Assembly (NCBI RefSeq): GCF_000711295.1
Contig: NZ_JOMJ01000004.1
Location: 310,001 to 374,000, forward strand
Length of the DNA stretch: 64,000 nucleotides
Reading direction: 5' to 3'
Source of the DNA: Desulfohalovibrio reitneri
GTDB taxonomy: Bacteria > Desulfobacterota > Desulfovibrionia > Desulfovibrionales > Desulfovibrionaceae
Shown: piece after piece, positions 23,602-59,460 of the stretch
Position numbering within the stretch: the stretch's first letter is position 1
Layout: each line of letters opens with the position of its first letter
Translations under genes and position numbers: made by a program
The notes under the pieces: generated by a model
Databases searched by the model: none
What the model was told of the DNA's origin: nothing
What the model saw: only the letters and a program-made list of their open reading frames with translations

Positions 23602-23731
23602 GGCGGCGCTCCCGTGCGCTGAAGGATAAAGCCAGAATCAGGGCGAAAGGAGAGAGGCCTCGCCGCCCCCGGGGCGGCTGGACCCAAAGAAAGACGGATC
23701 GCGCCCGACTGCCGGGCCGCCCGTCCCGTGT

Positions 23732-23877
23732 CATCCTCTCCCATCCGGACTGTCACCGTCGGCTCTGGAATCGCACCAGATCTGCTTGACCTCCCCCCGC
23801 GCGGGGGAGCGCTCGCGGGCTCCCGGCCCAAAGGCCGGATCACCGCCGGTGGGGAATTGCACCCCGCCCTGAGGATC
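23732..23877 (-). promoter_or_regulatory. FMN riboswitch (RFN element) controlling ribB
   Basis: Read on the minus strand, the conserved RFN features appear in order: ATCCTC (P1, 23876-23871), GGGGTGCAATTCCCCACCGG, a GCCGGGAGCCCGCGAG junction, a variable GC hairpin, GCAGATCTGGTGCGATTCC, GAGCCGACGGT-GACAGTCCGGATGG, and the closing GAGGAT (23738-23733). The 130 bases to ribB include a perfect 8-bp GC hairpin (23662-23678) that could be part of the expression platform. It binds FMN and reduces ribB expression by early termination or by hiding the ribosome site; which of the two is not clear. Confidence 0.93.
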
Positions 23878-23884
23878 GGGAGGA

Positions 23885-23913
23885 GTTGTACCCGGCGGGG
23901 GGACGGGGGTCAA
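23885..23913 (-). promoter_or_regulatory. Promoter of the riboswitch-ribB transcript
   Basis: On the minus strand TTGACC (23913-23908) and TACAAC (23890-23885) are exactly 17 bases apart. Predicted initiation near 23878 coincides with the first base of the riboswitch, which strongly supports the call. Confidence 0.7.
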
Positions 23914-23951
23914 TGTGGAGAAATCGGTGGAGAGGGCTTGCCGGAAAAAAA

Positions 23952-24028
23952 TGGTCGGGGCGGAGGGATTTGAACCCCCGGCATCGTGCTCCCAAAGCAC
24001 GCGCGCTACCAGACTGCGCCACGCCCCG
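23952..24028 (-). tRNA. tRNA-Pro (anticodon TGG)
   Basis: This 77-base tRNA includes an encoded CCA end. The acceptor stem is CGGGGCG paired with CGCCCCG, the D arm holds AGTCTGGTAG, and the anticodon loop TTTGGGA within stem CGTGC/GCACG gives TGG, decoding CCA proline codons. The T arm GGGGGTTCAAATCCC is standard. It lies 38 bases upstream of the ribB promoter and is transcribed in the same direction. Confidence 0.97.
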
Positions 24029-55673: not shown

Positions 55674-58157
<2,484 letters not shown>

Positions 58158-58335
58158 TGGGACCCCTCCCTCGGGGAGTTTGTTCGTTCCGGACCGCGTT
58201 CGCTGGGCCGGCGGACCAATACTGCGGCAAGTCGGAAGCCGGGTGAATGATATTCCGCACAACGGTTTTCGCACGCATTCCACCACATTTTTGATGGTAG
58301 CCCGATTACCCCGGGAGGTTCAAGGGGGGCCGCCC

Positions 58336-58363
58336 TAAAGTCCGGTCTCGAATCGGCCGAAAA
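58336..58363 (+). promoter_or_regulatory. Sigma-28-like (FliA) promoter of the first small gene
   Basis: TAAA (58336-58339) and GCCGAAAA (58356-58363) are separated by 16 bases, close to the flagellar sigma consensus TAAA-N15-GCCGATAA. The -10 match is 7 of 8. The small gene starts 39 bases beyond. A nearly identical arrangement precedes the next small gene. Confidence 0.65.
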
Positions 58364-58402
58364 GGCGGATAGGGTCGCATTGCAACCTCTTGGAGGCGTC
58401 AT

Positions 58403-58570
58403 ATGCCAATGAACTCCATGGCCGGACCGGCCTCGGGATTCGGACAGACCTTCGGGGCCCAGGTGGTCGCCAAGACCTTCGACTATCTCAACAGCTCCCC
58501 CATGCGTTCCTCCTTCGCCCCCGTTGACCAGGGTGGTGTGGGCCGTCGAGGTTGCCCCCTGGCGTCGTAG
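58403..58570 (+). CDS. Small 55-residue protein behind a sigma-28-like promoter
   Basis: This 55-residue product starts MPMNSMAGPASGFGQTFGAQ, continues VVAKTFDYLNSSP and ends GRRGCPLAS. TTGGAGG precedes the ATG by 7 bases. The first 33 residues look like a real small helical protein with Gly-rich and VVAKTFDYLN amphipathic parts; the last 12, from VDQGGVGRRG onwards, coincide with the left arm of a long inverted repeat and look out of character, so the original C-terminus may be lost. The flagellar-type promoter suggests a role linked to motility. It is not recognised as a known family. Confidence 0.6.
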   Translation: MPMNSMAGPASGFGQTFGAQVVAKTFDYLNSSPMRSSFAPVDQGGVGRRGCPLAS

Positions 58571-58658
58571 CGTCGTTTGCGCGCGGGCGGGCCGTACGGG
58601 TGTACTGTCCCGCCCGCGCGCATACGACGCGCCTAGCCAGGGAACAACCTCGACGGCC
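58541..58658 (+). repeat. 118-nt imperfect inverted repeat (long hairpin)
   Basis: The outer arms pair perfectly over 14 bp (58541-58554 with 58645-58658), the inner arms over 14 bp (58578-58591 with 58609-58622), and CGTCGT (58571-58576) with ACGACG (58624-58629). The remaining stem has a few mismatches and a 1-2 base shift. The loop is 17 nt. The left arm covers the last 10 codons of the small protein gene. Confidence 0.85.
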
Positions 58659-59015
58659 TATGGAGTGCGTCGGTGCGCGGGGCTCGTTCGCGCTTGCGCG
58701 CGCGAACATCGTGGAAGAGGCTCGTCCGCGCCGGGGGCGCGGACATCGCGAAGAGTGGGGCGCTTGCGCGCGCCCGGGGAGAGCGCGGTGCAACTGTGGA
58801 GAGAGCACGGCGCTTGCGCGCACCGGGGGAAGCTTCACGTCTCGTTGTCCCTCTGTGTATTCGCCACGGAAGATTGCGCTTGCCCGGGGTGGGGTTGCGT
58901 GCCCGCCAAGGAGAACGAGCGGGTGCTTGCTGAGGTGTGCTGGGCTTGTCTCCTGGCTGATGGCAGCCTTGCGCCCGCGTATGGCGGGGAGTGTGGGCGA
59001 TTTGTCCATCGGGCC
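58571..59015. other. Hairpin-rich stretch without a gene
   Basis: These 445 bases lie between two small genes. No credible coding sequence is present: two frames are open in parts, but the products are Arg/Gly/Cys-rich and lack ribosome sites. Instead there is the right arm of the long inverted repeat (to 58658), then short hairpins at 58686-58707, 58724-58744 (perfect 9-bp stem), 58758-58775, 58808-58825 and 58955-58968. The 12-mer GCGCTTGCGCGC occurs at 58690, 58760 and 58810, with degenerate copies near 58876 and 58966. It could be a structured RNA, the remains of a mobile element or a recombination site; none is recognised. Confidence 0.65.
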
Positions 59016-59043
59016 TAAAGATTTTTTCGGAAGCTGTCGATTT
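59016..59043 (+). promoter_or_regulatory. Sigma-28-like (FliA) promoter of the second small gene
   Basis: TAAA (59016-59019) and GTCGATTT (59036-59043) are 16 bases apart, the same spacing as in the first small gene, and the next start codon is 42 bases beyond. The -10 match is weaker (5 of 8). Confidence 0.55.
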
Positions 59044-59085
59044 CAACGGGGAAATCAGGATGAAAAAACCCCTTTGGAGGATCGC

Positions 59086-59337
59086 ATGGACATCGCTTCC
59101 CTCGGCGGGCAGCAGTTGATGCAGAGCATGAACATGGACCTTGGCGCCAAGGCCGCTGGCGGGCAGAACGGGTCCATCGAAGGTCAGGGCGCCACCGCCC
59201 TGGATTCCCAGAACCTTTCCGCCCAGATGGCCTCCGGCGGCATGCAGGCCCAGGGCGCGCCCACGGAAGGCGGCCTCGGCATGGCCTCCGGCGCGGCCAA
59301 CGACGGCGTGGGCGGTTTCCTCAACATCACCGCTTAG
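59086..59337 (+). CDS. Small Gly/Ala/Gln-rich protein behind a sigma-28-like promoter
   Basis: This 83-residue protein begins MDIASLGGQQLMQSMNMDLG and ends GVGGFLNITA. It is rich in Gly, Ala, Gln, Met and Ser, has no Cys and no long hydrophobic stretch, and could be a small exported or structural protein of low complexity. TTGGAGG lies 7 bases before the ATG. The N-terminal MDIASL start is reminiscent of small putative motility proteins in which a short helix precedes a polar tail, but I cannot place it with certainty. A strong terminator lies 25 bases past the stop, so it is monocistronic. Confidence 0.7.
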   Translation: MDIASLGGQQLMQSMNMDLGAKAAGGQNGSIEGQGATALDSQNLSAQMASGGMQAQGAPTEGGLGMASGAANDGVGGFLNITA

Positions 59338-59361
59338 CGCAAAGCCGCATACCGACGCGAA

Positions 59362-59391
59362 AAAGCCGACCCCGATATCGGGGTCGGCTTT
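59362..59391 (+). terminator. Terminator after the second small gene
   Basis: A perfect 30-bp palindrome (59362-59376 with 59377-59391) ends in TTTCTTG, 25 bases past the stop codon. Confidence 0.85.
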
Positions 59392-59460
59392 CTTGTTGTC
59401 CGAGCCGGATGGACTGGAAAAGGAGCACGCCTGCTCTACGCGCAGCCGGGCGGGGACGGG

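Follow-up and report, generated by a model that had tools for sequence, protein, structure and literature searches.

Two small adjoining genes of Desulfohalovibrio reitneri are very probably each read from a sigma-28 promoter of their own, and they appear to represent two branches, called type A and type B here, of a single class of small proteins. Gene 1 is a type A member that has been cut short by a dispersed repeat, and gene 2 is a probable type B protein, that is, a protein resembling YjfB. We give this account as a whole a probability of about 0.6. Both genes lie in the window, the whole stretch of 64 kb that was analysed (Table 1). The same window holds an FMN riboswitch and a tRNA-Pro (tgg) at 23729-24028 on the minus strand. 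A literature search at the level of titles and the beginnings of abstracts found no work on sigma-28-dependent small proteins of Desulfovibrio.

Table 1. Positions of the features discussed, counted from the first base of the window
Feature	Position	Strand	Basis
glgP-like carbohydrate phosphorylase gene, divergent	55674..58157	-	PF00343, 1053.9 bits; start codon chosen by reading
Gene 1, sigma-28-type promoter, TAAAG-N15-GCCGAA (= TAAA-N16)	58336..58361	+	Reading, pattern search, relatives
Gene 1, ribosome site TTGGAGG	58390..58396	+	Direct reading
Gene 1, 55 aa, type A member cut short	58403..58570	+	A1 profile, E 3.0e-6 in own genome
Gene 1, sole conserved unit, QTFGAQVVAKTFDYLNSS	58445..58498	+	Family comparison
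Dispersed palindromic repeat copy; gives last 12 codons and stop of gene 1	58534..58780	.	Approximate edges
Palindromic repeat core, 124 bases	58538..58661	.	-105.6 kcal/mol as RNA
Gene 2, sigma-28-type promoter, TAAAG-N15-GTCGAT (= TAAA-N16)	59016..59041	+	Reading, pattern search
Gene 2, ribosome site TTGGAGG	59074..59080	+	Direct reading
Gene 2 (83 aa), probably type B (YjfB-like), middle part extended	59086..59337	+	GC3 0.88; tail and profile tests
Gene 2, codons 38-83, aligned to type B, end GVGGFLNITA	59197..59334	+	Profile domain, 8.6 bits
Intrinsic terminator 3' of gene 2	59362..59391	+	Stem of 13 pairs, 4-base loop, T-rich tail

A protein search at E<=0.1 found relatives of gene 1 in 26 of 59 genomes, its own included (25 of the 58 others). 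They share the unit FGAxVVSKTLDYMN, which scores 36.2 bits in gene 1 and is absent from gene 2. A first profile, A1, comprised 22 sequences from the 26 genomes with a match; second matches within one ORF were merged, and the window's own gene, L016, L030 and L032 were left out. The type A proteins are mostly 66-133 aa long and carry one or two of the units on Ser/Gly-rich linkers (often APVDK), followed in the C-terminal part by a helix, (M)xQxYDFQxxVLGA, and a short tail. In the taxonomic family of the window the type A profile was matched in 147 of 288 genomes, distributed over 30 of the 44 genera. A scan of named genomes yielded 45 type A loci, 35 of which form a second set (A2). Desulfovibrionales, Deltaproteobacteria or unresolved proteobacterial records account for 44 of the 45, and the remaining one (L099) is a type A-like protein on a 5.7-kb contig of a MAG labelled Candidatus Methylomirabilis, a contig that may be mis-binned. 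Three loci with a poor start or a cut contig (L097, L099, L100) were kept out of the tail and profile-comparison tests and retained in the promoter counts. Judged by sequence comparison, type A is an undescribed family that occurs mainly in the Desulfovibrionales.

Pfam and NCBIfam returned nothing for gene 1, and among the matches listed for the 22 A1 members no model of either collection was over its cut-off. The weak Pfam matches were to DUF5858 (PF19176; 6 of 22 members, best E 0.02) and to YjfB_motility (4 of 22, best E 0.018), and NCBIfam gave single weak matches. The DUF5858 similarity is located at the KTLD segment and stays below the cut-off of 27 bits; the model is silent on function. 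When solved structures were searched with A1, the matches were stray ones, Pumilio-type among others, from E 0.0082 upward, and they were set aside. An AlphaFold2 model of one type A member, based on 35 sequences, consists of three helices without confident packing. With a pLDDT of 54 and a pTM of 0.30 the model is poor, and matches from a fold search would therefore mean little. Although such a model would suit a flexible protein bound to a partner, it is no proof of one.

A search for a conserved neighbourhood of type A genes gave recurrent groups that vary by clade, and no recognised flagellar one is among the groups listed (30 at most), the names being assigned by reading. A parallel to the window is found in L095, where a full-length type A gene adjoins glgP in the same orientation as window gene 1; in tblastn the window GlgP aligns there with 47% identity along 808 aa, and 234 bases separate the end of this alignment from the type A gene. 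A phosphorylase group that seemed common to seven loci and the window did not survive a direct check, by which glgP lies beside type A only in L095. A distant glgP (about 23% identity) is found some 3-5 kb from the type A gene in L065, L066 and L072, and at E<=1e-10 there is none in L057 and L100.

Gene 1 itself matches type A up to FAPVDQ and then continues with 12 odd terminal residues, which, like the stop codon, are repeat sequence; the stop falls inside the 124-base hairpin. The folding of this core has a z-score of -10.8, with 0 of 200 shuffles as good, and its inverted arms were found. Six more copies of the repeat are present in the genome (G000:C3:2325493, 1778239, 1739379, 2084222 and 1469918, and C4:288630); they are 73-84% identical in the main pieces and align on a common left edge. 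The repeat is made up of the core of about 124 bases, followed by segments GGCTCGTCCG... and GGGCGCTTGCGCGC; in a few copies TAG stands right before the left edge, as judged by eye. The base composition changes at the same place: codons 1-43 are coding-like, with a third-position GC of 0.84 (gene 2 is coding-like as well), and the last 12 codons are not (GC3 0.58, GC1 and GC2 0.83). By these computations gene 1 is a type A member that was cut short by a dispersed repeat.

What has been lost is the YDFQxxVLGA helix with the tail, and with it Y73, F75 and V79 (numbering of L056), which are invariant in 35 relatives, as well as L80, which is at least 90% conserved among them. The type A profile recovered no remnant of the lost half in the six frames of 58521-59085 (best -2.0 bits). 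These losses, together with the repeat-derived end, suggest that gene 1 may be dying, i.e. that the repeat has removed the conserved second half, that the 55-aa product is idle and that only gene 2 matters. We put this at somewhat less than even odds, since the gene has retained its promoter, its ribosome site, one intact unit and the coding-like composition of its first 43 codons. Such a decay would be compatible with the promoter assignment that we favour.

The second gene encodes a protein that starts with MDIASL. No clear orthologue was found in 288 genomes, where only its own place matches well; weak direct matches occur in 14 other genomes (E 0.0099-0.046), with that of the L211 place at 0.04. 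Pfam gave no match, and NCBIfam nothing but a sub-threshold match to SelO (0.011). The end of the protein, however, carries the C-terminal tail GxGxxL(D/N)(I/V)x(V/A) of a group of proteins of about 60-67 aa that end in GxGxxLDIxV or similar and that we call type B. With a profile of seven YjfB-like proteins (A3), type B was identified in 40 of the 288 genomes at E<=0.05 and in 34 at E<=0.001, and 33 of these 34 belong to a single genus, g53.

The Pfam model of YjfB (YjfB_motility, PF14070, "putative motility protein") is matched over its cut-off in Bacillus subtilis, one of the control genomes. The FlgV paper (PMC11607428) describes YjfB as "an uncharacterized small protein" and places it, elsewhere among the bacteria, in one sub-module together with sigma-28. 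The features that YjfB_motility shares with the proteins described here are the size, an MD(I/L/V) start, a V..K.LD helix and, at the very C-terminus, a tail of the form G-x-G-x-(L/I)-(D/N)-(I/V)-x-(V/A). A sigma-28-like site precedes several YjfB-like genes of the phylum, as it does the window genes. Type A differs from YjfB_motility by its one or two KTLDYMN units and by the extra YDFQ helix. The model itself matches these proteins at low scores: four of eight type B proteins scanned gave 14-19 bits, below the 27-bit cut-off, and neither window gene matched at E<=10. In 59 relatives no match at E<=1 was over the cut-off, and of seven such places that were inspected L104 alone had the look of a genuine YjfB-type protein. 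A scan of 297 genomes of the phylum found ten matches at E<=0.01, two of them over the cut-off; most of the ten have an MD start and a GxGxxLDVxA-like end, and three are preceded by a sigma-28-like site.

The assignment of gene 2 to type B was examined in three ways. Against a profile of eight YjfB-like tails, from which L169 was left out, the last nine residues of gene 2 outscored all of 2680 ORF ends (stop-to-stop ORFs of at least 100 aa, spurious frames included) and were equalled by 2 of 20000 shuffles, in a test that was devised after the likeness of the tail had been noticed. The whole-sequence score against the type B profile, with a domain at residues 38-83, was equalled by 18 of 2000 shuffles. 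Finally, the best partner in a BLAST comparison within a set of 75 sequences was L211, with 16 of 41 residues identical (E 9e-4) and the same LNITA at the very end. It would be compatible with the weak matches in the 288 genomes, with the lack of a Pfam match and with the absence of gene 2 from the A3 matches of its own genome at E<=0.05 if the protein were an unrelated Gly/Ala/Gln-rich orphan, encoded like gene 1 by a sigma-28-read gene and resembling YjfB in tail and start by chance. The scores of the tail and of the whole sequence and the similarity to L211 argue against such a coincidence, which we consider unlikely, and gene 2 is probably a divergent, YjfB-like type B protein. The initial annotation had recognised neither protein; this still holds with respect to Pfam and NCBIfam families, but a family can now be given for gene 1 (type A) and a probable one for gene 2 (type B).

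A common ancestry of the two types is moderately supported. The profile-profile score of A against B was 16.35, with none of 100 column shuffles as good, whereas in an earlier profile test with eight sequences 1 and 6 of 100 shuffles had scored as well; hhalign gave the pair a probability of 1-2%. One type A member, that of L095, scored 16.8 bits against the type B profile, compared with 3.7 bits for the next best of 42 members. On balance we hold a kinship of types A and B to be slightly more likely than not. At E<=0.001 the 147 genomes with type A and the 34 with type B do not overlap, a complementarity that is close to a single event because nearly all type B genomes come from one genus; at E<=0.05, 3 of the 40 A3 matches are in type A genomes (G010, G011 and G162, E 0.0076-0.033). 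The initial annotation had suggested that the two genes encode a pair of small proteins. With gene 1 truncated, gene 2 lacking a clear orthologue and the two types never found in the same genome among the 288 at that stricter threshold, a conserved pair is not supported.

The distribution was also compared with that of FliA, which was over its cut-off in 237 of the 288 genomes and missing from 51, 21 of the latter being good genomes (at least 90% complete, at most 5% contaminated). Among good genomes, 113 of the 184 that have FliA contain type A and 0 of the 21 that lack it, but this association is confounded, because all 21 belong to g7, g27, g53 and g54, where type A is absent with or without FliA. 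Type A was found in nine of the 51 genomes without FliA, each of them below 90% completeness. For type B the comparison can be made inside g53, where it was found in 33 of 66 genomes with FliA and in 0 of 13 without (p 4.5e-4); for the genomes that are at least 90% complete the figures are 27 of 47 and 0 of 8 (p 0.004).

Flagellar co-expressed determinants of Campylobacter leave the cell through the flagellar secretion system and have their effect outside it. By analogy, the proteins described here could be substrates of flagellar secretion with a role outside the cell. Their small size, the late-flagellar promoter class and the low-confidence model with its unstructured start would suit such a role, which nevertheless seems rather improbable to us.

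The promoter class is well supported. Both sites reported by the initial annotation are present, although its intervals were two bases too long. The distances of 39 and 42 bases that it gave between site and ATG are correct on direct reading, and the TTGGAGG ribosome sites are found as claimed. The promoter-to-start distance, taken from the site, is 67 bases for gene 1 and 70 for gene 2. In the window the pattern CTAAAG-N14..17-GYCGAW matches these two sites only, whereas shuffled windows gave a mean of 0.05 matches and a maximum of 1, so that 0 of 100 shuffles had two; with TAAA-N15..16-GYCGAW the same two sites alone were returned, and two matches occurred in 1 of 100 shuffles. In the whole 3.39-Mb genome the motif is not enriched: TAAAG-N14..15-GYCGAW has 14 matches, compared with 24 for the backwards control. 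Because of this excess in the control the motif by itself proves nothing, and the weight therefore rests on the position before genes and on conservation in relatives.

With respect to position, ten of the 14 strict sites could be placed before an ORF, the two window genes included; the other four (L037, L040, L044 and L045) are not among the ten. The remaining ORFs encode three flagellins, FlgM (PF04316, 60.3 bits), FlaG (PF03646, 54.6 bits), a glycosyltransferase, a regulator of the MucR type and an unknown protein of 137 aa. The genome also contains the gene for sigma-28 (FliA; G000:C3:672492-673142, TIGR02479 over cut-off, E 1.3e-74), and the late-gene flagellar promoter type proposed by the initial annotation is indeed the one found before the flagellins, FlgM and FlaG. 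The N16 spacing of the window sites recurs at one flagellin, at FlaG and at FlgM. The FlgM and FlaG genes thus resemble the window genes in promoter class and spacing; their starts lie 73 and 85 bases from the site, respectively. The window proteins, in contrast, have no PF04316 or PF03646 match, and nothing ties them to an anti-sigma or FlaG function. The genome has two more flagellin-domain genes, C3:1187521 and C4:438129, and none of the 14 matches is a strict site upstream of either.

Three of the other placed sites deserve mention in their own right. At G000:C3:694153-694177 (L043) a strict site lies 102 bases before the 137-aa protein, MGRVISLQEYVQAK..., which has no Pfam match at E<=0.01 and is a candidate for another late-flagellar gene. 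Similar sites precede the MucR-type regulator (G000:C3:626714, L042) and, at a distance of 215 bases, the family 2 glycosyltransferase (C3:1669697, L047); these could reflect flagellar regulation or glycosylation, or chance.

With respect to conservation, a strict site within 200 bp of the start was found for 13 of the 45 type A relatives and for 1 of 261 control ORFs, that one being a flagellin. In a scored test, which was designed after the upstream regions had been read and required a TAAAG or TCAA-type box and GCCGATAA at fixed spacing, the numbers rose to 27 of 45 for type A and 5 of 261 for the control ORFs of the same loci, one of the five again a flagellin; no scored site was found upstream of the other 18 type A genes. 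In 23 of the 27 the site lies 66-84 bases before the ATG, a range that includes the distances of both window genes. The comparison with orthologues that the initial annotation had suggested as a check therefore bears out its promoter for gene 1, whose relatives keep such a site at a similar distance. Upstream of type B a scored site was found in 13 of 30 cases (9 of 24 distinct proteins), at -70 to -86, and in 0 of 24 control ORFs; L212, with 47 bases upstream only, was counted as a miss. By eye, at least eight of the other 17 type B upstream regions combine a CCCTA(C/G)-type box with a similarly spaced CCGA. Chance matches at the two window sites, with transcription of both genes by the housekeeping polymerase, would fit the larger number of backwards matches in the genome, but this is very improbable, given that a search of 58150-59460 yielded no sigma-70-like promoter and that the site is conserved before the relatives within a narrow range of distances. 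The window sites are thus most probably sigma-28 promoters.

Several type A relatives, e.g. L056, L081 and L090, share a leader that starts about GAnnGATAGGCGTTATTTCC after the box and that is recognisable in gene 1 as well; it is possibly a regulatory leader or an element of the start region. In L076 (9567-9970) the type A gene is preceded, at some 400 bases, by another small ORF (77 aa, MTPSDIESIFSPIGQ...) that has a strict site too. This is another adjoining pair of small genes, with a partner different from gene 2.

In the reading that we favour, each of the two genes would be transcribed from its own promoter by RNA polymerase carrying sigma-28 (FliA), alongside the flagellins, FlgM and FlaG. 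Types A and B would then probably belong as branches to a single class of small accessory proteins driven by sigma-28, which take the same place in one genus or another; the type A member of this genome would be the damaged one, with a type-B-like protein adjoining it. As for molecular function, we infer a small, helical and largely flexible protein that, if transcribed by sigma-28, would be made while the filament is built. It could bind a flagellar component via its amphipathic helices and the conserved tail, and such binding might tune filament assembly or motility. An accessory role in motility is, in our view, a fairly likely one for these small proteins. More tentatively, and with the odds rather against it, one unnamed sigma-28-coupled class might span YjfB, type B and the repeat-bearing type A, with the common tail GxGxxLDIxV docking on the flagellar apparatus or being exported by it, and with the type-B-like neighbour having kept the function after the type A gene was broken.

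Type A, which roughly every second genome of its bacterial family carries and which is accompanied by a flagellar-type promoter of its own, offers a ready test set. YjfB has a name, but in the FlgV paper referred to above (PMC11607428) it figures as an uncharacterised companion of sigma-28; the shared tail may provide a concrete piece with which to find the partner.
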